Shown here in pieces: positions 880-24,834 of a stretch of 36,007 nt of DNA (position 1 is its first letter; the number at the start of each line of letters is the position of its first letter). Origin of the DNA: a virus; IMG/VR virus record IMGVR_UViG_3300044998_000363, positions 1-36,007 of that record; one strand, given 5' to 3'. The translations under genes were made by a program, and so were the position numbers. The notes under the pieces are model-generated. The model was not told the DNA's origin. It did not search any database and saw only the letters and a list, made by a program, of their open reading frames with translations.

Positions 880-1052
880 CCGCCCTCCACCCGCACCTGT
901 CCGCCGAGCGCGACCCCTACGACGGCGACTACCGCGTCAAGTGCGACCACGCCGACCACAAGACGCCCGTGCTGTCCGAGCCGTTCAGCGTCATGGGCTA
1001 CGGGGCGCTCGACAGGTTCGTCAACGCGCACGACCACGAGGGCGCCCAGTGA
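876..1052 (+). CDS. Small hypothetical protein, 58 aa
   Basis: GTG start overlapping the upstream stop. The protein is hydrophilic, with D-P-Y-D-G-D-Y-R near the N-terminus and a C-D-H-A-D-H cluster in the middle. That cluster could bind a metal, but a second cysteine pair is absent. G/C third positions and the coupled overlaps at both ends support a real gene. The function is not recognised. Confidence 0.65.
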   Translation: MTALHPHLSAERDPYDGDYRVKCDHADHKTPVLSEPFSVMGYGALDRFVNAHDHEGAQ

Positions 1053-1234
1053 AGGGCGTCCCGGTGCGCTGCGCCAGGTGCGACGTCGAGTGGATCCCCG
1101 CCCCCGGCGTGGACGTCGAGCCCTGCTGGCAGTGCGGCCGCGCGGTGAGCGTCGTCGAGTCCAGCGTCGCGCCCCGCACCACGCTCGGGCGCGGCCTGCC
1201 CGACCATGCGCTGACCGGCGGTGAGGCCGCATGA
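1049..1234 (+). CDS. Zinc-ribbon-like protein, 61 aa
   Basis: GTG start chosen because it overlaps the previous stop by four bases, as elsewhere in this operon. Residues 8 to 31 carry two C-x2-C pairs (CARC and CWQC), the usual spacing of a small zinc ribbon. The rest is a short polar tail. Binding to nucleic acid or protein is inferred only from the fold type. The stop overlaps the next ATG (ATGA). Confidence 0.7.
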   Translation: MKGVPVRCARCDVEWIPAPGVDVEPCWQCGRAVSVVESSVAPRTTLGRGLPDHALTGGEAA

Positions 1235-1383
1235 CGATCCGCTACGTCACCGCCCGCGAGTTCACCTGCGACGCCTGCGGCCGGCGCATCGTCGTCTGCG
1301 ACGCCGCGTCGCCGCGGCCCGCCGGCTGGTCCAGCGACGGCGAGGGCGGGCACCTGTGCCCCGGGGACCGGGAGGCGTCGTGA
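1231..1383 (+). CDS. Small zinc-binding protein, 50 aa
   Basis: ATG start within an ATGA overlap. The protein has a CDAC pair at residues 13 to 16, a further Cys at about 22 and an H-L-C-P motif near the C-terminus, so it probably folds around one zinc ion. Actinophage genomes often carry such peptides of unknown role in early operons. The stop overlaps the GTG of the nuclease gene. Confidence 0.65.
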   Translation: MTIRYVTAREFTCDACGRRIVVCDAASPRPAGWSSDGEGGHLCPGDREAS

Positions 1384-1883
1384 CCCGCAACCGCCGATCC
1401 GCCCGCCAGGCCGGCGCCCGCTTCGAGAAGCAGGTCGCCGACTACCTCGCCGCGCAGCTGCACGACGACCGCATCGAGCGCCGCGCCCGCACCGGCGCGA
1501 AGGACCGCGGCGACATCACCGGCCTGCGCCACATGGGGCAGCGTCTCGTCGTCGAGTGCAAGGACACCTCGCGCTGGACGCCCGGCGAGTGGCTCGCCGA
1601 GGCCGAGGTGGAGCGCGGCAACGACGACGCCGTCGCCGGACTCGTCGTGGCCAAGCGTCGCGGCAAGGGCGACCCGGGCGACGCCGTCGTGCTGATGACG
1701 CTGCGGGACCTGGCGGCGCTGCTGACCGGCACCCGCGACCCGTGGCGCACCCCCGACGACCCGATCCTCGAAGCCGCCTACTGGACCTGCCAGGTCGCCG
1801 GCGACCACTGCGCCACCGGCGCCGCGCGCGTCGTCGACGGCACCGCCGCCTGCAACGCCTGCGCCCCGGAGGTGGCCGCATGA
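1380..1883 (+). CDS. PD-(D/E)XK nuclease, Holliday-junction-resolvase-like
   Basis: A 167-aa protein starting at GTG in a GTGA overlap. The catalytic core of the PD-(D/E)XK fold is visible: Glu16 in the first helix (RFEKQVADYL), Asp45 in GDITG, and Glu59/Lys61 in VVECK. The length and spacing match phage and archaeal Hjc-type resolvases and related structure-specific endonucleases. The C-terminal 45 residues add cysteines (W-T-C, D-H-C, CNAC) that probably bind zinc. The likely role is cleavage of branched intermediates during replication or before packaging. A restriction-like nuclease is the alternative. Confidence 0.8.
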   Translation: MTRNRRSARQAGARFEKQVADYLAAQLHDDRIERRARTGAKDRGDITGLRHMGQRLVVECKDTSRWTPGEWLAEAEVERGNDDAVAGLVVAKRRGKGDPGDAVVLMTLRDLAALLTGTRDPWRTPDDPILEAAYWTCQVAGDHCATGAARVVDGTAACNACAPEVAA

Positions 1884-2365
1884 TCCCCGCCTGGACCGTC
1901 GACGCCCTGTGCGCGCAGATCGGCGACGTCGAGCTGTTCCACCCCGAGAAGGGCGGCAGCCCCACCGAGGCGCTCGGCGTGTGCCGCGAGTGCCCCGTCA
2001 AGGCGCAGTGCCTCGAATGGATCCTCGAGCTCGAAGGGCGGCCCGGCTCCTACCCGTACGGCGTGTACGGCGGCACCACCGCCACCCAGCGGGCCGCGCT
2101 GCTCGGCATGCGCGAGGGTGGCCGCTGCCGCGACTGCGGCGCCACCATCGCGCACAACGTCCGACTGTGCGACGACTGCCGCGTCGCCGCACGCAAAGCC
2201 ACCATCGCCGCCCACGACGCGAAGCGCGCAGCCGCCCGCGCCGACCGGGAGGCCAGGCGCGCACCACGGCTGGTGTGCGTCGCCTGCGGCAACCGTGTCC
2301 GCGGCGACATGCCCTGCCCGCACTGCACCGTCAACCGCACCGACCCCACCAGGAGGACAGCATGA
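1880..2365 (+). CDS. WhiB-family iron-sulfur regulator with extra C-terminal zinc ribbons
   Basis: A 161-aa protein, ATG start in an ATGA overlap. The N-terminal half is a WhiB-like domain with four cluster-binding cysteines (C11, C35, C38, C44 in a C-x23-C-x2-C-x5-C arrangement) and a G-V-Y-G-G turn in place of the usual G-V/I-W-G-G. WhiB proteins bind a 4Fe-4S cluster and act with the primary sigma factor; they occur in actinobacteria and their phages. After about residue 75 come two Cys-rich modules (CRDCG with CDDC, and CVACG with CPHC) joined by a basic Ala/Arg linker. These are not part of standard WhiB proteins and may add DNA or RNA binding. Confidence 0.88.
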   Translation: MIPAWTVDALCAQIGDVELFHPEKGGSPTEALGVCRECPVKAQCLEWILELEGRPGSYPYGVYGGTTATQRAALLGMREGGRCRDCGATIAHNVRLCDDCRVAARKATIAAHDAKRAAARADREARRAPRLVCVACGNRVRGDMPCPHCTVNRTDPTRRTA

Positions 2366-2808
2366 ACGCAATCCCCGCCCCCACCTACGCCCTGCGGCTG
2401 CTCGCCGACGGCAAGCCCATCCGCGGCGCCGCTGACGAGGCCGGACTCGAAGTCGGCCAGGTCGTCGCCGCGTTGCTCGACGACTGGCGCAAGCAGCGCG
2501 ACGGCACCCCCAGCGGTGCGCTCACCGGTCCCGGCTGGGAGCAGTACCTGCAGCACCCCTCGCCGAAGGTGACGCGGGCCGCGGAGCGGCTCCGTGACGT
2601 GTTCGCCGCCGAGGACGCCAAGACGCAGCTGCTGCTGGAGAAGCAGCGCCTCGAGGCGCAGCTCGCCCGCGTCAAGGGCCAGCTGCGCGGCAGCACCGCC
2701 GCGGCGCCCGCGGCGAGGCGTGAGGCGACGCAGCGCTGCCCCGACTGCGACGGCACCTTCGCCAACCTCGGCGTGCACCGCGCCCGCAAGCACGCCGCGG
2801 CCGCCTGA
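2362..2808 (+). CDS. HTH / coiled-coil protein with C-terminal C2H2 finger
   Basis: A 148-aa protein. The ATG lies four bases before the end of the WhiB gene and follows AGGAGG. The N-terminus (residues 9 to 35) looks like a short helix-turn-helix with G-A-A-D-E-A-G-L. Residues 65 to 105 form an amphipathic helix likely to be a coiled coil (LLLEKQRLEAQLARVKGQL). The C-terminus is a C2H2-type finger: C-P-D-C, F, then H-x4-H. A DNA-binding dimer is inferred. The specific role is not recognised, but its position between WhiB and the replication protein suggests regulation or replication. Confidence 0.7.
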   Translation: MNAIPAPTYALRLLADGKPIRGAADEAGLEVGQVVAALLDDWRKQRDGTPSGALTGPGWEQYLQHPSPKVTRAAERLRDVFAAEDAKTQLLLEKQRLEAQLARVKGQLRGSTAAAPAARREATQRCPDCDGTFANLGVHRARKHAAAA

Positions 2809-3032
2809 TGAACATCAGCGAGGCCAACGACGTCAACACGCTGCTCGCCTGGCTGACCCGCACCGCGCCGCCCGTGCCCGACGGCGTGGACGAGGGCGCC
2901 TGGCTGCTCGCGCAGGACGACGACGCCAAGAACGCCGCCAAGGCGCTCGCCGAGCGGGCCCGCCGTGCCCTGCACGCCGGCATGTCCGCCACCGACGTCG
3001 AGGCCGCGTGGGAGCGGGTGGCCGTCGGGTGA
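2808..3032 (+). CDS. Small acidic helical protein, 74 aa
   Basis: ATG start sharing one base with the previous stop (TGATG). The product is acidic and helical, with no cysteines or hydrophobic span; it includes W-L-T-R, an acidic D-E-G-A-W-L-L stretch and a C-terminal amphipathic helix (ATDVEAAWERV). No family is recognised. It ends in a GTGA overlap with the primase-polymerase gene, so it may be a coupled partner or regulator of that protein (inference). Confidence 0.65.
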   Translation: MNISEANDVNTLLAWLTRTAPPVPDGVDEGAWLLAQDDDAKNAAKALAERARRALHAGMSATDVEAAWERVAVG

Positions 3033-5380
3033 CGATGCCCGCCGACGAACCGCCCGGCGTGCTCCTCGACGCCGCACTCGCTTTCCACGACGCCGGCTGC
3101 TGCGTCATCCCCGCCCGCACCGACGGCAGCAAGGCGCCCGCCGTCAACTGGCGCGCCTACATGACCCGGCGCCCCGACCGCGCCCAGGTCACCGCCTGGG
3201 CGTCCGGGCCCTACGACGGCATCGGGCTCGTCTGCGGCAAGGTGTCCGGCAACCTCGGCATGCTCGAGGCGGAGGGCCGGGCCGTCCACGACGGCTACCT
3301 GCCGCGCCTGGCCGCGCTCATGGCCGACCACGGCGCCGCCGAGCTGTGGCAGCGCGTCGCCACCGGCTACGCCGAACGCACCCCGTCCGGCGGCATCCAC
3401 TGGCTGTACCGCGTCGACGGCCCCGAGCACGGCAACACCAAGCTCGCCCGCCGCGTCGTCGACGGAGCGGTGCAGGTCCTGTTCGAGACTCGCGGCGAAG
3501 GCGGCTTCACCGTCGTCGCGCCCTCCGCCGGCCGCACCCACCCCACCGGAGGGTCCTGGCAGCTCCTGACCGGCGACCCCAGCAGCATCCCCGTCCTCTC
3601 CGTCGACGAGCGCGACATGCTCCACGCCGTCATCCGCCTCCTCGACAACATGCCCGTCGACGAGGCGCCCATACCTGCCGCCGCCAGGAATCTTGTCGGC
3701 GACTCCGAGCGGCCCGGGGACCGCTACAACCGCGAGGTCACCTGGGAGGAGCTGCTCGGCGCGCACGGCTGGACCCGCCAGCAGCGCATCGGCCCCGGCT
3801 GGGCGTGGCGACGGCCTGGCAAGGACCACGGCATCTCCGCCACCACCGGGCAGCGCGCCGACGCCGACCGGCTGTACGTCTTCACCACGTCCACGCCGTT
3901 CGAGGCCGAGCGGCCCTACACCAAGTTCGGGGCGTACGCGGTGCTCGAGCACGCAGGGGACCACTCCGCCGCCGCGTCCGCGCTGCGCGCCGCCCAGGAC
4001 GGCCCACCCGCGCCGCCCCTCGCCACGCTGGTCGCCCCGCAGACGCAGGCCGGCACGAGCACACCAGCCGGGGCCGACGAGACGCCCGACGAGACGCAGG
4101 AGCCGCGCGAGCGGACCTCGTGGTGGCGGCGCGACCTGCAAGCCGTGCTCGCCGGCGACGACTCCGGCCCCGCACCCACCGCCGGACGGCGCACCGACGG
4201 GCAGATGCTGTTCTACCCCGGCCTCGTCAACGGCCTCATCGGCGAGGCCGAGTCCGGCAAGACGTGGGTCGCGCTGCACACCGTCGCCCAGGTCCTCGAC
4301 GGCGGCGGCCGCGTCGTCTACATCGACTTCGAGGACACCGCCCGCGGCATCGTCAACCGGCTGCGCCTCCTCGGCGTCGACCAGCAGGCCATCGCCGAGC
4401 GCCTCGTCTACGTCGAGCCCGACGAGCAGCTGCACCAGCTGGCCGCCGACGACCTCGGCGAGCTCCTCGACGAGCAGCCCGACCTGGCCGTCCTCGACGG
4501 CGTCAACGCCGCCATGCAGCTGATGGGCCTCGACATCAACTCCAACAACGACGCCACCGCATTCGCGCAGAAGCTGATGCGCCCGATATCGCGGCGCGGA
4601 ATCGTCGTCCTGTACGTCGACCACATTCCCAAGAATGTCGAGAACCGCGCCAAGGGCGGAATCGGGGCGCAGGCCAAGCGGGCCATGACGACCGGCTGCT
4701 GCATTCTCGTCGAGAAGGTCACCGAGTTCGGTGTCGGCACTGACGGGAAGCTGCGCCTCGTCGTCGACAAGGACCGCCCGGGCGCTGTGCGCGGCGCATC
4801 TTCGGGGGCGAAGCGGGCCGGGACGGTGCTGCTCGAGCACCAGGGCGGCGGGCTGTCGATGCGGATCGAGCCGCCCGAGGAGATGCCCGTCACCGCCGAC
4901 GGCCGGCCGCGCCCCACGAAGCTCATGGAGCGGGTGTCGATGCACCTGTGGACGACGGGGGAGGCGCTGTCGAAGGCGCGCATCGAGAAGGAGGTCCGCG
5001 GCGACTCGAACCTGATCCGCGCGGCGGTGCGGGCGCTGCTCGACGAGGGCTGGATCACCGTCGACGGGGAGTACCGCGGGAGCCCCCTGTACCGCCACGC
5101 GAGGCTGTTCTCCGACCTCGTGCAGCCCCCATCTGACCTCGCTTCAGCGAGATACCAGCGAGATAACAGCGAGGTTCCGACGACTAGCGAACCTCGCTCC
5201 AGCGAGGTAACCCCCCCCGTAGGGGGGGTTATCGGCAGCGAGGTCGCGTCGGACAGCGACCCACGCTCCCAGCGAGGTCGGCTTCAGCCGTGCATCGCCT
5301 GCGGCGTCCCCGTCGACCTCACCATCACCCGCGGCGAACTACGACACCCCACCTGTCCCGACCCGAGCGGCACCCCGTGA
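3029..5380 (+). CDS. Primase-polymerase fused to RepA-like AAA ATPase (replication protein)
   Basis: About 783 aa; GTG at 3029 overlaps the previous stop, with an in-frame ATG at 3035 as an alternative. The N-terminal part (about residues 10 to 200) looks like a bifunctional primase/polymerase domain (F-H-D-A-G-C-C-V-I-P-A, then T-P-S-G-G-I-H-W and G-F-T-V-V-A-P-S). A RecA-fold ATPase follows: Walker A GEAESGKT at about 405-412, FED in the next strand, and Walker B V-L-D-G at about 490. It resembles RepA/DnaB-like hexameric helicases. Residues 640 to 700 look like a winged helix. The last 85 residues are Ser/Thr-rich, lie over an iteron-like DNA cluster and end with a C-x2-C/H-x2-C zinc site. 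It probably initiates, unwinds and primes phage DNA replication. Confidence 0.9.
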   Translation: MTMPADEPPGVLLDAALAFHDAGCCVIPARTDGSKAPAVNWRAYMTRRPDRAQVTAWASGPYDGIGLVCGKVSGNLGMLEAEGRAVHDGYLPRLAALMADHGAAELWQRVATGYAERTPSGGIHWLYRVDGPEHGNTKLARRVVDGAVQVLFETRGEGGFTVVAPSAGRTHPTGGSWQLLTGDPSSIPVLSVDERDMLHAVIRLLDNMPVDEAPIPAAARNLVGDSERPGDRYNREVTWEELLGAHGWTRQQRIGPGWAWRRPGKDHGISATTGQRADADRLYVFTTSTPFEAERPYTKFGAYAVLEHAGDHSAAASALRAAQDGPPAPPLATLVAPQTQAGTSTPAGADETPDETQEPRERTSWWRRDLQAVLAGDDSGPAPTAGRRTDGQMLFYPGLVNGLIGEAESGKTWVALHTVAQVLDGGGRVVYIDFEDTARGIVNRLRLLGVDQQAIAERLVYVEPDEQLHQLAADDLGELLDEQPDLAVLDGVNAAMQLMGLDINSNNDATAFAQKLMRPISRRGIVVLYVDHIPKNVENRAKGGIGAQAKRAMTTGCCILVEKVTEFGVGTDGKLRLVVDKDRPGAVRGASSGAKRAGTVLLEHQGGGLSMRIEPPEEMPVTADGRPRPTKLMERVSMHLWTTGEALSKARIEKEVRGDSNLIRAAVRALLDEGWITVDGEYRGSPLYRHARLFSDLVQPPSDLASARYQRDNSEVPTTSEPRSSEVTPPVGGVIGSEVASDSDPRSQRGRLQPCIACGVPVDLTITRGELRHPTCPDPSGTP
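5136..5278 (+). repeat. Iteron-like octamer cluster, candidate replication origin
   Basis: The octamer AGCGAGGT, or AGCGAGAT, occurs in direct orientation at 5146, 5157, 5168, 5201, 5237 and 5271. Its complement ACCTCGCT occurs at 5136 and 5191. The first three direct copies are exactly 11 bp apart, about one helical turn. The copy at 5191-5198 and that at 5201-5208 form a perfect inverted repeat with a 2-bp spacer. The direct copies start in all three codon phases of the host gene, so a shared peptide cannot explain them. Origin or operator function is inferred from this layout. Confidence 0.65.
5206..5233 (+). other. GC hairpin inside the iteron-like cluster
   Basis: Seven C (5211-5217) pair with seven G (5222-5228), extended outward by A-T, A-T, T-A, a G:T wobble and G-C. 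The loop is CGTA. No T-run follows, and the element lies inside a coding frame, so a simple terminator is unlikely. A structured single-strand element for primase loading or an origin hairpin would suit the repeats around it. Confidence 0.6.
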
Positions 5381-5715
5381 GCCGCCGGCACGCCACCGAG
5401 AACCACTGCCCCCGCTGTCGGCTCGTCGTCCTCTCCGGTCTCGACAACGACCGCTGCGCCCTCGACGCCCGCGTCGACCCCTGGCCGATCGACCGCGTCA
5501 CCGAGGTCCTCGCCCTGCTCGCCGGCCGCCGCACCTACGAGGCCGTCCGCTACGAGGGCCGCATCGAGCTCTACCACCGCAGCGTCGACCGGCAGGGCCG
5601 CCCAGGCACCCAGGTCCTCGTCGAGCACCGCTGCGGCGAGCCGCTGCCCGCCTGCGGGAACGCCGTCACGCAGAAGCCCGTATTCGCACCCCTGCCCGAC
5701 GAACCGCCATTCTGA
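5377..5715 (+). CDS. Hypothetical zinc-binding protein, 112 aa
   Basis: The GTG at 5377 is chosen because it overlaps the replication gene's stop (GTGA). The N-terminus has C-P-R-C and a later R-C, a partial zinc ribbon; the C-terminus has H-R-C-G and A-C-G and ends in a proline-rich tail. The middle is a helix and strand stretch (VTEVLALLAGRRTYEAV). No family is recognised. It is probably a nucleic-acid-binding accessory to the replication module (inference). Confidence 0.6.
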   Translation: MSRRHATENHCPRCRLVVLSGLDNDRCALDARVDPWPIDRVTEVLALLAGRRTYEAVRYEGRIELYHRSVDRQGRPGTQVLVEHRCGEPLPACGNAVTQKPVFAPLPDEPPF

Positions 5716-5732
5716 GAACGGAGCCGCGAAGA

Positions 5733-6545
5733 ATGCAGCCGGACACGATGCGGAACGACATGCGCGAAGATATGCGCGGCGATGTGCGGAGCGGGAATGC
5801 ATTCCACGTTACACCGGATTCCACGCGCGCATGCGTCGTCTGCCACCGCCGGCGCCTCGCCGAGCACGAGCCGATGACGTGCGGGCGGTGCGTCGCCCGG
5901 GTGCGCTCCACCGTCGCCGAGACGGCCGAGCTGTTCCCGCTGCTGAGCGTCGAGCTGCACGCCCGTGTCGGCGCGGGCCGCGCCGGGGACGGCATGGGCG
6001 GCGACGAGCACCCGATGCCGTTCGGGGACCTGCTGAGCCTCATCGGGCCGGGCGCGGCGGTGTCGTGCCGCGACGGGCAGCCCGACGATGCCCCGTCCGT
6101 GGTGGGCACCCTGGCTGGCTGGGAGGACGACTGGCGCTCCGTGCGGGGTCTGCCGGGCGCCCCGTCGGTGGCCAGCGTCGCGTCGTGCGCGGCGTTCCTG
6201 CTCGAGCAGCACGGCTGGGCGGCGCAGCACCACCCGGCGTTCGACGAGTACGCGGCGGAGGTGCGCCAGCTGCTGGGCCGGGTGCGCTCGGCGCTGCGAC
6301 TGGTGGACACGCCCGTGACGCTGCCGGCGCCGTGCTTCGAGTGCGGGGAGCGGCTGGTGCGGCACTACGACCCGCCGCAGCCGTGCCGCCACGACGGCCC
6401 GCACCGCCGCTGGTGCGACCAGGGCGGCCTGCGCGACGAGGCGGTGTGCACCGGCTGCCGCCGCGTCTACAGCCCGGCGGAGTACCTGCTGGCGCTGCGG
6501 GCGACGCTCGAGGTGGCCGCCGCGGACACGTCGAGGGTCGCGTGA
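5733..6545 (+). CDS. Actinophage zinc-ribbon protein, 270 aa
   Basis: ATG start after a weak GGAG; three further in-frame ATG codons follow at 5748, 5760 and 5772 because the N-terminus is a short M-R-x-D repeat. Two zinc modules frame the protein: CVVC/CGRC at about 30 to 50, and a C-terminal module with CFEC, a C-x-H pair, W-C-D and CTGC. The middle is helical with W-E-D-D-W-R and a conserved-looking hydrophobic helix. Similar two-ribbon proteins of unknown function recur downstream of replication genes in actinophages (from memory). The first 80 bases are less GC-rich than the neighbours. Confidence 0.65.
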   Translation: MQPDTMRNDMREDMRGDVRSGNAFHVTPDSTRACVVCHRRRLAEHEPMTCGRCVARVRSTVAETAELFPLLSVELHARVGAGRAGDGMGGDEHPMPFGDLLSLIGPGAAVSCRDGQPDDAPSVVGTLAGWEDDWRSVRGLPGAPSVASVASCAAFLLEQHGWAAQHHPAFDEYAAEVRQLLGRVRSALRLVDTPVTLPAPCFECGERLVRHYDPPQPCRHDGPHRRWCDQGGLRDEAVCTGCRRVYSPAEYLLALRATLEVAAADTSRVA

Positions 6546-6608
6546 GGTGGCGGCGAATGACATCGGTGTGATTCAATGTGACCAGCGCGTACGAGTGCGC
6601 CCTGATTC

Positions 6609-6637
6609 AGCCCCGGAGCCCGCAGGCAGCCGGGGCT
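6609..6637 (+). terminator. Hairpin, probable transcription terminator
   Basis: AGCCCCGG (6609-6616) pairs perfectly with CCGGGGCT (6630-6637). The 13-nt loop can form a further GCC/GGC stem. TCTTGCAT follows, a weak T-rich tail acceptable in high-GC genomes. It lies in the longest non-coding gap of this part (6546-6656), between the early block and the next small genes. Nothing else is recognisable in that gap. Confidence 0.6.
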
Positions 6638-6659
6638 TCTTGCATCCCCGGCGAGGGTG

Positions 6660-6759
6660 GTGAGCGGCGTGGACAGCAGCGTCAAGGCGACCTACCGCGA
6701 AGACGGCACCTTGCTGGACATCACCGCGTCCTGCACCTGCCTGGACCAAGGACATGACG
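6660..6759 (+). other. Coding-like segment that shifts to the +1 frame
   Basis: From a GTG at 6660 (or 6657) the frame reads M-S-G-V-D-S-S-V-K-A-T-Y and on to a C-T-C-L-D pair, with almost every third base G or C. It has no stop where the good coding ends, at about 6750. The same frame runs on to 7061 but with rare codons and an Arg/Pro-rich product, the mark of a shadow. The coding signal continues in the +1 frame from ATG 6754. The two parts may be one gene split by a shift, or a decayed small gene. Confidence 0.45.
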
Positions 6760-6894
6760 CCGACGCAGCGGCTGTACGCCAGCGTGCAAGTGCCCCGCTC
6801 GCTGCTCGTCCACGCCCACAACGACCTCGACATGCTCGCCGAGAAGGCGCCCGACGACGCCTCCACGCTGACCACGCCCGAGCCCGACCCGTAG
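6754..6894 (+). CDS. Small hypothetical protein, 46 aa
   Basis: ATG preceded at close range by AAGGA. The peptide M-T-P-T-Q-R-L-Y-A-S-V has a hydrophobic patch (VPRSLLVHAH) and an acidic, Thr/Pro-rich tail. Third positions are G/C-rich in this frame and poor in the overlapping longer frame, so this is the better reading between 6754 and 6894. It may be the second half of the segment beginning at 6660. The function is unknown. Confidence 0.5.
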   Translation: MTPTQRLYASVQVPRSLLVHAHNDLDMLAEKAPDDASTLTTPEPDP

Positions 6895-6908
6895 GACGGG
6901 AGGCCCCG

Positions 6909-7061
6909 ATGCTCGCCACCGTCGACCTCGCCGACATCGACGAGGCCATCAGCAACGCCCGCGCCTCGATGCGTTCCGCGTCCTGCCCCGAGCACCGCGC
7001 CGCCTGCGAGCGCTACCTCGACGAGCTCCTCGACCAGCGGGGCGGCAGTGGCCCTCGCTGA
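6909..7061 (+). CDS. Small helical protein, 50 aa
   Basis: ATG follows GGGAGG at good spacing. The protein is acidic at the N-terminus (VDLADIDEAISNARASM) and helical throughout, with S-C-P-E-H and a second Cys in A-A-C-E-R-Y. This could be a helical hairpin stabilised by a metal or a disulfide. No family is recognised. Its 3' end overlaps the next GTG by 14 bases. Confidence 0.6.
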   Translation: MLATVDLADIDEAISNARASMRSASCPEHRAACERYLDELLDQRGGSGPR

Positions 7062-7281
7062 CCGCGACCCCCGCGCCCGCCCCAACGGCCGTCCCTGCTC
7101 CGTCGGCACCCTGCTTGGCGAGCTCAGCGACGACGACCGCGCCACCCTCGAAGACTGGCTCGCCGACACCCGCTACTCCGAGTCCGGCATCTGGGCCGAG
7201 CTCAAGGCCGAGGGCCACCTGATCGGCCGGCAGTCCATCGGCCGCCACCGCAGGGAGCAGTGCCGCTGTGTCGCTGGCTGA
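7048..7281 (+). CDS. Small HTH-like protein, 77 aa
   Basis: GTG start. After an Arg/Pro-rich N-terminus (A-L-A-D-R-D-P-R-A) the protein has two helices and a likely recognition segment (SESGIWAELKAEGHLIG, then QSIGRHR), the layout of a small helix-turn-helix DNA binder. It precedes the phosphoesterase gene with a 14-bp overlap. Its first residues resemble that gene's N-terminus (S-L-A-D-R-D-P). A role as regulator or DNA-targeting partner of the phosphoesterase is a guess. Confidence 0.65.
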   Translation: MALADRDPRARPNGRPCSVGTLLGELSDDDRATLEDWLADTRYSESGIWAELKAEGHLIGRQSIGRHRREQCRCVAG

Positions 7282-8287
7282 CCGCGATCCGGGCCGCGCC
7301 GACGAGGTGCAGCAGCTGCGCGACGCCCTCACCCGCGCCCAGCGGGCCCTGGCGTCGGAGAAGCAGCGCACCGAGCACCTCGTCGACGCCACCATCGTCG
7401 CCGTCCGCGACGCCACGCTTGCCTTCGGCCCCATCGAGCCCGTCGCCGCGCCGGCCCCCGACCGCCGCCGCAAGGACGCCGAGCACGCCCTGTGGCACCT
7501 GACGGACTGGCAGGGCGCGAAGCGCACCACCAGCTACGACAGCGACGTGATGCGCCAGCGCGTCATCCGCTTCTGCGAGCGCGCCGTGCGCATCACCGAC
7601 ATCCAGCGCGCCGACCACCCCATCAAGGACTGCACCATCCTGCTCGGCGGCGACATGATCGAGGGCCTGTTCAACTTCCCGACGCAGCCGTTCGAGATCG
7701 ACGCCACCCTGTTCGAGCAGTTCGTCACCGTCGGCCGGCTCCTGGCGGACGTGGTGCGCCGCGCCCTGGCCACCTACGAGAACGTGACCGTCGTCGCCGA
7801 GTGGGGCAACCACGGCCGGCTCGGGTCGAAGCGGGCCGCGGTGCCGCGCTCCGACAACGCCGACCGCATGACGTATGAGCTCGCCCGCTCACTGCTGGAG
7901 GGCGAGCCGCGACTGACGTGGCAGGACTGCCCCGAGGACATTCAGCGGGTGCAGATCGGGGAGTACCGGGCCCTGCTGGTGCACGGCGACGAGATCGGCC
8001 GCAACGGCTTCGCGTCGCCGATGACGATCGTGAACCACTGCTCGCGCTGGCAGTCGGGCGCCTACCCGTGGCGCTTCACCGACGTGTACGTCGGGCACTA
8101 CCACCAGCACCAGCAGTGGGCGCTGCCCTCGGGTGAGGGTGCGGTGTACATGACGGGCTCGACGGAGAGCGACAACCGCTACGCCGGGGTGATGCTGGCG
8201 GCGTCGTCGCAGCCGTCGCAGCGGTTGCACTTCGTGGATCCGCAGCGGGGCCGGGTGACGGCGCAGTACAAGGTGTGGCTCGACTGA
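7268..8287 (+). CDS. Calcineurin-like metallophosphoesterase (Mre11/SbcD-like fold)
   Basis: A 339-aa protein, GTG start overlapping the previous gene. The N-terminal 45 residues are helical and charged. The metal-binding motifs of the calcineurin-like family are in order: D80-W-Q (Gln in place of the usual His of D-x-H), G-G-D129, G-N181-H182-G-R, H239-G-D and G-H277-Y-H279. Phages carry such enzymes as nucleases or phosphodiesterases; Mre11-like DNA processing is plausible but not proven from sequence. The D-x-Q change may alter metal use. The stop is two bases before the RNA-like element at 8289. Confidence 0.8.
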   Translation: MSLADRDPGRADEVQQLRDALTRAQRALASEKQRTEHLVDATIVAVRDATLAFGPIEPVAAPAPDRRRKDAEHALWHLTDWQGAKRTTSYDSDVMRQRVIRFCERAVRITDIQRADHPIKDCTILLGGDMIEGLFNFPTQPFEIDATLFEQFVTVGRLLADVVRRALATYENVTVVAEWGNHGRLGSKRAAVPRSDNADRMTYELARSLLEGEPRLTWQDCPEDIQRVQIGEYRALLVHGDEIGRNGFASPMTIVNHCSRWQSGAYPWRFTDVYVGHYHQHQQWALPSGEGAVYMTGSTESDNRYAGVMLAASSQPSQRLHFVDPQRGRVTAQYKVWLD

Positions 8288-8288
8288 C

Positions 8289-8367
8289 GGGGCCGGAAGG
8301 CATCGACTCCTGAGCAGACCGGCACGCCGACCTCAGGGGGACCTGGGTTCGATTCCCAGCGGCTCCA
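8289..8367 (+). ncRNA. tmRNA tRNA-like domain without an mRNA-like domain
   Basis: The 7-bp acceptor GGGGCCG (8289-8295) pairs with CGGCTCC (8360-8366), including G3:U70, followed by discriminator A (8367) and CC-G. The T-arm is complete: CTGGG, loop TTCGATT, CCCAG (8343-8359). There is no D-stem; the D-region reads GAAGGCATCGACT, close to the GG-x-UUCGAC signature at tmRNA 5' ends. Helix CCTGAG/CTCAGG (8309-8314 with 8332-8337) sits where tmRNA helix P2 belongs, and GGAC precedes the T-stem as in tmRNA. P2 closes on a 17-nt loop, with no pseudoknots or tag frame. G3:U70 plus A73 are the alanyl-tRNA synthetase identity elements. A degenerate tRNA-Ala or an att-site relic is the alternative. 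Confidence 0.6.
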
Positions 8368-8465
8368 CCGATCCCTACCGCTGCGACCATTGCGGTCGCC
8401 GCTTCGTCGTGCCGTCACTGGCGGCCGACTGTCTCGCACGACACACGCTCAACCTCGAGGAGTGA
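8368..8465 (+). pseudogene. C2H2-finger ORF fragment lacking a start codon
   Basis: The frame ending at TGA 8463-8465 encodes T-D-P-Y-R-C-D-H-C-G-R-R-F, then C-L-A-R-H, a clear Cys2-x12-Cys/His finger. Going upstream, the frame passes through the RNA-like element to a stop at 8256 without any ATG, GTG or TTG. Only CTG (8310, 8343) or ATT (8352) could serve as a start. Either the gene lost its 5' end when the RNA element arrived, or it uses a rare start inside the element. Confidence 0.5.
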
Positions 8466-8472
8466 CCTGCCT

Positions 8473-8616
8473 ATGCCGCGCACCTTGCGGCGTTGCGGTC
8501 ACTCGGGCTGCGTGCGCTTGACGCAGTACGACCGTTGCCCTGACCACGCGGGGGTATCCGATGCGATACGAGCTGGACGACACGCAGCCGTTGGACATGG
8601 GACCGCTGCTGCGTGA
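8473..8616 (+). CDS. Small zinc-knuckle ORF, HNH-leader-like, 47 aa
   Basis: ATG preceded by GAGGAG. The first 27 residues (M-P-R-T-L-R-R-C-G, then G-C-V-R and R-C-P-D-H) look like the metal knuckle in front of some HNH endonucleases; no HNH core follows. After about position 8553 the codons become atypical (gta, ata, cga, gtt) and the good coding moves to the +1 frame at ATG 8561. The last 20 residues are therefore probably not a natural product, and the two ORFs may be one gene. Confidence 0.45.
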   Translation: MPRTLRRCGHSGCVRLTQYDRCPDHAGVSDAIRAGRHAAVGHGTAAA

Positions 8617-8707
8617 CCCGCCGTGCCCCGAGTGCGGCATGGGCACGTCGCGCTACGGGCAGTGCCTCGACTGCGAGCAGTGCCACCACGAGGGCGACTG
8701 CGGGTGA
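8561..8707 (+). CDS. Cys-rich small protein, 48 aa
   Basis: ATG after GGGGG. The N-terminus is acidic (M-R-Y-E-L-D-D-T-Q-P-L-D-M); the C-terminal half holds C-P-E-C, C-L-D-C and C-H-H/C, enough for one or two zinc ions. It overlaps the preceding ORF by 56 bases in another frame, an overlap much larger than usual here. It ends in a GTGA overlap with the next gene. The function is unknown. Confidence 0.55.
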   Translation: MRYELDDTQPLDMGPLLRDPPCPECGMGTSRYGQCLDCEQCHHEGDCG

Positions 8708-8937
8708 TCGTGCCCGGCGCCCCCACGGCCGTCATGCTGGCGTCGCTGCGACCCAAGCCGGTGGACTTCACCGCCGTCTGCCCCACCTGCTCGACCGACG
8801 CAACGTTCCGCTCGACGCCGTTCTCGCATACCCCGCTCACCGAGATGACGCCGGGCGTGCGGTCCCGCTGCTGCGTGCTGACGCACGTGCCATGCGGGCC
8901 ATGCCCGTGCCACAACTGCCGAACGGAGGCCACATGA
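8704..8937 (+). CDS. Cys-rich hypothetical protein, 77 aa
   Basis: GTG start in a GTGA overlap; a second GTG at 8710 and an ATG at 8734 are alternatives. The product has C-P-T-C in the middle and a C-terminal cluster C-C-V-L-T-H, C-G-P-C-P-C and C. With 9 cysteines in 77 residues it is likely to bind zinc. The region is somewhat less GC-biased than its neighbours. It leads directly into the lysis gene with an ATGA overlap. Confidence 0.5.
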   Translation: MIVPGAPTAVMLASLRPKPVDFTAVCPTCSTDATFRSTPFSHTPLTEMTPGVRSRCCVLTHVPCGPCPCHNCRTEAT

Positions 8938-9818
8938 GCGCCATCGTCGGCATCGACACGTGGGCCGAGTGGGGCTGCCGGCCGGTCACGCTCGAGCGCA
9001 ACCCGCGCCCCGTCGGCGTGGCCGTCCACTACCCCGGCCCCGGCTGGTACGCCTTCGACTCGCACGCGAAGTGCCGCGAGGTCGTGCGCGCATGGGACGC
9101 GCAGCACCGCGCCCGCGGCTCCCGCATGCTGGAGTACGGGGCGATCATCTGCCAGCACCGCATCGTGCTCGAAGGCCGCAACCGCGCATCCGACCCGATG
9201 ACGCGCGTGGGCAGCAACGGCACCTACGCGAGCAACAGTTCGCACCTGAGCGTCCAGCTGATGCGCGGCACCAACGACAAGCCGCCGACCGACATGGAGC
9301 TCCGCGCGCTCGGTGAGTGGATCGCGCTACTGCGGAAGGCCGGCGCTGGCGGTCAGGTCCGCGGGCACCGCGACTTCTACGCGACCTCGTGCCCGGGCGA
9401 CCCGCTGTACCGGGCGCTGCCCACCATCGACCGCTACGCCGACGAGGCAGGGAACGAGCCAATGGCCGAGTACGCCGACTACCACAGCGTCTACAACGTG
9501 AGCGTCCCGCGTGGCCGCGAGGTCACCCTGGCGACGGTGGACACTACGAAGCACGACGGGCAGGCGCTGCTGTTCAACGCTCAGTTCGCGTTCAAGACGG
9601 GCACCATCGCGCCGTCGCGTGCTCGGCTGCGCTTCGTGCGGGTGCCGAAGGGCGACGGGACCGGCGAGGCCGACCTCGAGCCGACCCGCAACGTGTGGCG
9701 CGGCGTCCACAACCACGTGTTCGTCGGCGGCGACAAGGTGGAGGTGCGGGTCACCTTCTCCGGGCGCGGCAACGTGACGCTCAACTACCTGCACTTCAAG
9801 GCTGCACGGTTCGGCTGA
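8934..9818 (+). CDS. Endolysin: PGRP-type N-acetylmuramoyl-L-alanine amidase
   Basis: A 294-aa protein; the ATG overlaps the upstream stop and follows GGAGG. The N-terminal domain has the zinc ligands of the PGRP/type-2 amidase family: H32 in V-A-V-H-Y, H145 in R-G-H-R-D and C153 in T-S-C-P-G-D. It should cut the bond between N-acetylmuramic acid and L-alanine of the stem peptide at the end of infection. Residues 175 to 294 form a beta-rich domain (YNVSVPRGREVTL to NVTLNYLHF), probably for cell-wall binding. No signal peptide is visible, so release depends on a holin; a holin-like gene lies close downstream. Confidence 0.85.
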   Translation: MSAIVGIDTWAEWGCRPVTLERNPRPVGVAVHYPGPGWYAFDSHAKCREVVRAWDAQHRARGSRMLEYGAIICQHRIVLEGRNRASDPMTRVGSNGTYASNSSHLSVQLMRGTNDKPPTDMELRALGEWIALLRKAGAGGQVRGHRDFYATSCPGDPLYRALPTIDRYADEAGNEPMAEYADYHSVYNVSVPRGREVTLATVDTTKHDGQALLFNAQFAFKTGTIAPSRARLRFVRVPKGDGTGEADLEPTRNVWRGVHNHVFVGGDKVEVRVTFSGRGNVTLNYLHFKAARFG

Positions 9819-24403: not shown

Positions 24404-24834
24404 CGCTGCTCACCGGCTTGGCCGAGTACCTCGACGACAACGCCATCGGCACCTGGCGCGCCACCGGCGCGTACACCGCCAGCGAGGTCGGCATCGTCAT
24501 CGAGACCAACCCGCAGGCGCCGCCGCAGGTCATCAGCGTGTGGCAGTACGGCGCCGGCGAGGCGTCGGCCGTCGCAGACATGGACGAGGTGCGCGTGCAG
24601 CTGCGCTTCCGCGGCACCGCCAACCCGGGCGTGTCCCGCGGCCGCGCCCAGTCCGCCTACGACCTGCTGCACGGCGCGTCGTTCCTCACCCTGCCCGACG
24701 GCACCGTCTGCGAGTCGATCCTCGGCGTGCAAGGCGGGCCCGTCTCCATCGGTCAGGACGGCAACGGCCGTCACGAGCACGTCGTCAACCTGCGCGTGCA
24801 GGTCACCAACCCCGCCTCCGCACACCGCGCGTAG
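24400..24834 (+). CDS. Tail terminator-like protein, 144 aa
   Basis: GTG in a GTGA overlap. The order L-A-E-Y-L-D-D-N-A-I-G at the start, V-Q-L-R-F-R-G in the middle and A-Y-D-L-L-H-G is characteristic of minor capsid/tail terminator proteins, which cap the tail tube at the neck end. The beta-alpha pattern and its position just before the major tail protein support this. Confidence 0.75.
   Translation: MTLLTGLAEYLDDNAIGTWRATGAYTASEVGIVIETNPQAPPQVISVWQYGAGEASAVADMDEVRVQLRFRGTANPGVSRGRAQSAYDLLHGASFLTLPDGTVCESILGVQGGPVSIGQDGNGRHEHVVNLRVQVTNPASAHRA

Follow-up and report, generated by a model that had tools for sequence, protein, structure and literature searches.

The window, by which we mean the whole 36,007-base viral record that was analysed, encodes a replication protein whose parts are listed with the other features of the locus in Table 1. 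Translation could begin at GTG 3029 or at ATG 3035. Pfam matches identify a primase-polymerase (Prim-Pol) domain (PF09250, 1.4e-13) and an AAA_25 domain (PF13481, 3.9e-14), and the PHROG match is to DNA polymerase/primase (7.6e-54). The RecA-like/AAA_25 ATPase is probably a helicase. The last 250 bases of the open reading frame, at its 3' end and just past a predicted winged helix-turn-helix (wHTH), carry a cluster of repeats of the octamer AGCGAGRT.

Nine copies of AGCGAGRT occur in the whole record, eight within the cluster and one at 24481, so the word is not common elsewhere. In 100 dinucleotide shuffles of the whole window the mean was 2.16 copies and the maximum 8; none reached nine. The initial annotation had described six direct and two inverted copies here, three of them exactly 11 bp apart and one pair forming a perfect palindrome, with the direct copies in all three codon phases, and each of these observations is confirmed. 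The 11 bp spacing belongs to the copies that start at 5146, 5157 and 5168; the palindrome has arms of 8 bp separated by 2 nt (5191-5198 and 5201-5208); and the phases of the direct copies, taken in order in the frame from 3026, are 2, 1, 0, 0, 0 and 1. The copies at 5136 and 5146 make a further inverted pair with one mismatch. What had been overlooked is a hairpin formed by a C-run and a G-run (C8-GTA-G7) inside the cluster. The strand from 5120 to 5300, folded as DNA, gives -48.3 kcal/mol (z = -5.3 against shuffles).

At positions 8289-8370 (plus strand) the window also matches the Rfam tmRNA model at 57.8 bits (gathering threshold 47), with both ends of the tRNA-like domain present and about 11 nt in place of the tag and pseudoknot part of about 300 nt. 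ARAGORN gives no tRNA or tmRNA. The element may be a mini tmRNA-like RNA that lacks the tag, or else a relic.

For the C-terminal half of the replication protein, AlphaFold modelling from an alignment of 52 sequences places a RecA-like ATPase first, followed at residues 276-336 by a helix-helix-helix-strand-strand arrangement that corresponds to a winged helix. The elements (helices 276-289, 295-301 and 306-318; strands 322-328 and 331-336) are predicted with high pLDDT. Residues 354-395 have pLDDT below 50, with the exception of residue 376, so that the octamers coincide with what is predicted to be a disordered linker, ahead of the CxxC...HxxC tail. Structural matches to the whole model are RecA/KaiC-like ATPases, and a profile search gives a weak match of the winged-helix part to AdcR (E 0.007). 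Folded alone from its single sequence the wHTH gave a poor model (mean pLDDT 74.7, no wing strands), and structure comparison of this lone domain returned nothing useful, the best match being an adenylate kinase with Z of 3.7. We have therefore relied on the alignment-based model.

Table 1. Features of the replication gene and its iteron cluster (window coordinates).
Feature	Position	Strand	Basis or remark
Replication gene: Prim-Pol N-terminal, AAA_25/RecA-like ATPase, wHTH, disordered linker, short CxxC...HxxC tail	3029..5380	+	Pfam, PHROG, translation
Winged helix-turn-helix, proposed iteron reader	4916..5110	+	AlphaFold and covariation
wHTH E codon	4985-4987	+	Covarying residue
wHTH R codon	5018-5020	+	Covarying residue
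Iteron cluster, 8 exact copies	5136..5278	+	Overlies disordered linker (model residues 354-395 = DNA 5150-5275)
Iteron AGCGAGGT	5136..5143	-	Octamer count
Iteron AGCGAGAT	5146..5153	+	Octamer count
Iteron AGCGAGAT, 11 bp after preceding copy	5157..5164	+	Octamer count
Iteron AGCGAGGT, 11 bp after preceding copy	5168..5175	+	Octamer count
Iteron AGCGAGGT, inverted, partner of 5201 copy	5191..5198	-	Octamer count
Iteron AGCGAGGT	5201..5208	+	Octamer count
Iteron AGCGAGGT	5237..5244	+	Octamer count
Iteron AGCGAGGT	5271..5278	+	Octamer count
C-run/G-run hairpin TAACCCCCCC-CGTA-GGGGGGGTTA (C8-GTA-G7), within cluster	5208..5231		DNA folding and relatives

The octamer itself proved a poor guide to relatives. 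A search for a triple AGCGAGRT pattern matched 11 viral contigs, which by eye look like unrelated tandem repeats, none with a C/G hairpin. The pattern GCGAGGT-C6...G6 matched six contigs, none with a cluster of the octamer; a stricter palindrome pattern matched no contig, and of five stretches that fitted a pattern in a single-protein search of viral contigs none was confirmed as a relative. Since exact words failed, the architecture was taken as the guide. Relatives were found with an alignment of five related ATPases, which retrieved 80 viral and 50 genome loci.

In these relatives the repeats differ in sequence. They are GGGAACCACC in Kineococcus plasmid pKRAD02 and TGAACCGGT in Streptomyces phage Dagobah, at the end of the AAA gene in both, and CCTGCCC just past the gene in a Streptomyces griseoaurantiacus plasmid. 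Microcystis phage MinS1 carries eight copies of ACCTCGTC together with a C/G hairpin just past its gene. Among four further named phages a clear cluster is present only in Verrucomicrobia phage P8625, with seven copies of TATCGGCA immediately 3' of the gene; Rasputia has a hairpin and, by eye, imperfect repeats, and no cluster follows the gene in KimJongPhill or Dulem virus 38. The initial annotation had proposed to check whether the octamer persists in homologous genes, its absence from related phages counting against an origin. The exact word is missing from most relatives, and what they share is an equivalent cluster in the same place.

Three of the loci call for separate comment. In MinS1 the N-terminal domain on the related ATPase (positions 3476-5164 of its locus) is that of DnaB and not Prim-Pol; one module of ATPase, wHTH and iterons is thus joined to different N-termini. 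In Streptomyces phage KimJongPhill five copies of CAGAACGC(TTA) lie upstream of the primase/helicase gene (616-815), not after it. Streptomyces plasmid NZ_CP108372.1, which has only the Prim-Pol domain in common, carries a dense direct and inverted array of TCCCTGCA/GCAGGGAC directly 3' of its Prim-Pol gene (4196-4550).

The position of the cluster was assessed blind to the gene. For each locus we took the 8-mer with the most copies on both strands in any 250-nt window. The discovery anchors numbered 135 (the 130 loci found, the window and four named loci), of which 134 had at least 150 amino acids, 97 were left after removal of near-duplicates and 93 of these had at least 450 nt beyond the ATPase match. 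The left end of our window, at 10-257, holds 11 copies of the 8-mer CGTAGGCC at an exact spacing of 24 bp; this tandem repeat is otherwise the top cluster, and the window was therefore scored over 1001-9000 only. The densest cluster was centred 0-450 nt past the ATPase match in 80 of the 93 non-redundant loci, where a uniform distribution predicts 4.6, and elsewhere in the other 13; among the loci from the genome collection alone the figure was 35 of 47. A best 8-mer with at least four copies was found in 77/93 such regions, compared with 36/1822 other tiles and 0/930 shuffles.

The held-out set comes from two additional scans that started from different seeds (130 rows). Two very short hits (L214 and L215) and 17 rows with contigs already in the discovery set were excluded, leaving 88 distinct contigs and, once near-duplicates of the discovery set and of each other had been removed, 65 loci; 64 had enough 3' sequence and 53 had at least four copies. 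The top cluster fell 0-450 nt past the ATPase match in 55/64 (expectation 7.6) and elsewhere in nine, with the qualification that descent is only partly independent between loci retrieved with one seed and those retrieved with a looser one.

The arrays share an anatomy. Among the 218 spacings of up to 40 bp between same-strand neighbours, 107 are 10 or 11 bp, which is one helical turn. With one octamer aligned per locus the oriented consensus is GGG(A/C)NNNG, from which the window word CAGCGAGG deviates in the first two bases. A C-run/G-run hairpin, defined by a stem of 5 or more and by four or more C ahead of a loop of 3-8 nt, is found in 42/93 related regions and in 34/1766 control tiles; as defined, it is missing from the other 51 loci. 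Of the 78 loci that have at least four copies, 43 carry every copy beyond the stop codon, 10 have part of their copies there, and 25, the window included, hold the whole array within the open reading frame. In all but two of these 25 intragenic clusters (23), same-orientation copies occupy more than one codon phase, either two or all three.

That the array can lie wholly beyond the stop, and in mixed codon phases where it does not, indicates a constraint on the DNA, as the initial annotation had proposed from the phases in the window alone. The reading frame may either stop ahead of the array or continue through it. The reverse view is that the repeat belongs to the protein, as part of a disordered linker, or is a functionless simple tandem repeat. 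Low model confidence in the linker is what a disordered repeat would produce, and tandem AGCGAGGT arrays do exist in unrelated contigs. This explanation is nevertheless hardly credible to us, given the codon phases and the arrays beyond the stop, the presence of copies in both orientations and the covariation of the word with recognition residues that is described below.

We considered which part of the protein reads the word. Covariation was analysed in 77 of the 97 loci, those with at least four copies and an alignable protein. With AAA identity controlled, wHTH identity correlates with octamer similarity (partial r 0.29), a value reached in none of 300 permutations. In sliding windows the correlation is about zero over most of the ATPase (-0.10 to 0.13) and 0.13-0.23 over the wHTH and its edges. 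A scan of mutual information between every residue and every octamer position is noisy: its highest row belongs to an AAA residue with a value of only 0.07, and z exceeds 4 for 28 of 590 pairs that involve the wHTH and for 29 of 2095 that involve the AAA domain.

A simple rule emerged at two residues, E298 and R309 (numbered from zero at DNA 4091, equivalent to model residues 299 and 310), both of which are present in the window protein. The count covers 76 of the 77 loci: CG occurs in the octamer at 21 of the 22 with E298 and R309 and at 12 of the 54 without (p = 2e-9). When all 346 residue positions (0-345) were scanned, these two gave the strongest associations with CG, 7e-8 and 1e-7, the next being 7e-4. 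On a tree of the ATPase only, 22 path-disjoint pairs differ in CG; 12 show a concordant change in the E/R pair, none the reverse, and in 10 the pair is unchanged. The rule was noticed after the discovery data had been viewed and was for that reason tested on the held-out loci, with the discovery position weight matrix and alignment. There CG is present in 29/29 with the E/R pair and in 8/24 without (p = 5e-8). CG without the pair thus occurs at 12 discovery and eight held-out loci.

Base contacts are expected at such helix positions in HTH proteins. The AlphaFold model puts E298 in the second helix of the predicted wHTH and R309 in its recognition helix. Two loci with AAA domains about 91% identical illustrate the exchange: L076 has the word GGGACGAG with E/R and L057 the word GGGAAAGG with I/L. 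As the wHTH and the repeats lie side by side, recombination may have exchanged them together and so added to the overall correlation. Such linkage does not, on the sequence comparison, explain why E298 and R309 stand far above other wHTH positions that are equally linked. These data give indirect support to binding specificity of the replication protein for the octamers.

The identity of the covarying partner bears on a different proposal, that the array next to the replication gene serves as a centromere-like site for partition or has another structural function, such as packaging or recombination. Centromere arrays also consist of short phased repeats. In mycobacteriophages Miko and Rachaly, five direct repeats immediately downstream of repA make up the parS locus (PMC7157519). 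However, in the covariation analysis, which covered the replication protein, the word follows the wHTH of the replication ATPase itself, and we regard a partition or structural role as very unlikely.

It is likely, in our view, that the wHTH reads phased octamers in the 3' part of the gene that encodes it and that these are the iterons of a phage replicon complete in itself. A primase-polymerase, a RecA-like/AAA_25 ATPase and a predicted C-terminal winged helix are combined in one polypeptide, and the winged helix would read octamers (CAGCGAGG here) one helical turn apart. Several monomers could then bind one face of the DNA, where wrapping or bending would expose the C/G hairpin at the centre, perhaps a structure or priming site. 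The ATPase of the bound polypeptides would open the duplex, and their primase would make the first primer close by. Very probably the protein reads the row of octamers in its own gene to start copying of the genome. Octamer binding by the protein, a start of replication at the cluster and the role of the hairpin are steps that we infer.

The initial annotation had placed at the cluster a replication origin recognized by the protein that it sits in. The recognition part is well supported by the tracking of the wHTH and by the E/R-CG rule on held-out loci; the origin part is suggested by the architecture and by analogy with characterized plasmids. The cumulative GC skew, offered as a further guide, declines steadily from one end of the window to the other; it has no minimum at 5.2 kb and is therefore uninformative. 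An AT-rich unwinding region is common in iteron origins. Between 4900 and 5500 we found no such element, the lowest 60-bp tile still being 58% GC, and membership of the iteron origins is accordingly claimed for the repeat/initiator pair only; clustered short direct repeats near an initiator gene are present.

Might the same protein bind the array for regulation, by autorepression or control of a downstream gene, and not for initiation? Covariation reveals that the word is read, not what follows from it, and initiator binding to iterons often doubles as copy control. No octamer lies 5' of the gene, though, the sole other copy in the record being at 24481, and the array is kept at the 3' end whether the frame stops ahead of it (43/78) or runs through it (25/78). 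The equivalent element of plasmid pWTY27, discussed below, is moreover needed for replication. Regulation alone therefore seems an unlikely account, and we continue with an origin as the preferred reading.

Similar arrangements can be recognized among known replicons. The RSF1010/IncQ oriV system likewise has a helicase, a primase, an iteron binder and priming hairpins, with the functions split over separate proteins. In geminiviruses variable short iterons covary with Rep residues, as here, but Rep is a rolling-circle endonuclease. The Streptomyces theta plasmids are also close in content. Replication of pWTY27 depends on repA, on repB (primase/polymerase) and, in cis, on a 300-bp iteron beside repA, on which RepA leaves footprints (PMC3583192). 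This array appears to lie 3' of repA, to judge from the 'c' gene names and coordinates rather than from a statement in the paper. Like our locus, pWTY27, with pFP1 and pFP11 as cited there, has a Prim-Pol gene and an array of short direct and inverted repeats, which in the plasmid is bound by a second Rep protein encoded beside it; the pWTY27 repeat GTGGGAAC includes GGGAAC, which fits a GGGANNN-type word. These plasmids differ in that the array is non-coding and Prim-Pol and RepA are separate genes.

The lambda origin lies in the middle of gene O, and lambdoid iterons are inside the initiator gene and are read by its product (PMC7466680). The window resembles lambda in having its repeats within the gene, but 43 of the 78 relatives have the repeats wholly 3' of the stop. 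By analogy with lambda gene O, an unstructured protein stretch can carry DNA repeats, and the window iterons fall in a stretch that is predicted to be disordered. Lambda O, however, is not a primase/helicase, and the Pfam and PHROG searches of the window protein gave Prim-Pol and AAA_25/primase families only, with no homology to lambda O. In the same source the iterons of lambda and Stx phages are nearly identical between the phages compared and are accompanied by an AT-rich tract.

The pRN1-type replicons offer a parallel in protein architecture: Prim-Pol, helicase and C-terminal wHTH in one protein, with the origin region 3' of the gene. According to PMC4234260 the stem-loop 3' of the pRN1 gene is required and movable, its sequence varies while its structure is kept, the helicase is of the SF3 type and iterons are explicitly absent from the single large stem-loop. 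The window protein has the Prim-Pol domain (PF09250) and, from the AlphaFold topology and the weak AdcR match, a C-terminal winged helix. It has an AAA_25/RecA-like ATPase, and iterons with a small C/G hairpin, in place of an SF3 helicase and a single long stem-loop, neither of which was found. Covariation of domain and origin has been described for RepA of the PLE satellites of Vibrio cholerae, whose origins mutate and so evade the phage nuclease Odn, an origin-directed pressure known in that system (PMC8263062). The PLE protein differs, on that account, in being of the RepA_N type without a primase, and two origin types are described compared with dozens of words here.

Iterons beside or inside initiator genes, and covariation of domain and origin as in PLE RepA, are thus already known. 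For the family-wide arrangement, in which replication proteins of the helicase type, their N-termini either Prim-Pol or DnaB-like, go together with many iteron words at one conserved place and with a residue rule that predicts part of the word, no description was found in the open-licence PMC literature.

We lean towards a broader interpretation, in which a large family of phage, plasmid and chromosomally carried replicons has origins that work as an exchangeable key and lock; where hosts are named, most of these replicons are actinobacterial. The C-terminal wHTH of a replicative ATPase would read an array of the GGG(A/C)NNNG type directly behind or inside the end of the gene; the word would change fast while the architecture stays fixed, and a simple residue code, in which a second-helix E combined with a recognition-helix R stands for CG, would predict part of the word from the protein sequence. 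Incompatibility and origin-targeting parasites are candidate drivers of this turnover.

The start of replication is usually unknown in environmental phages. If our interpretation is correct, the origin of a whole family could be found from sequence alone, and two amino acids would predict part of the word that an initiator reads. The family would also provide well over 100 natural pairs of initiator and iteron, including close pairs with different words, that would serve the study of how origin specificity changes, of its fast turnover and of the coexistence of replicons.
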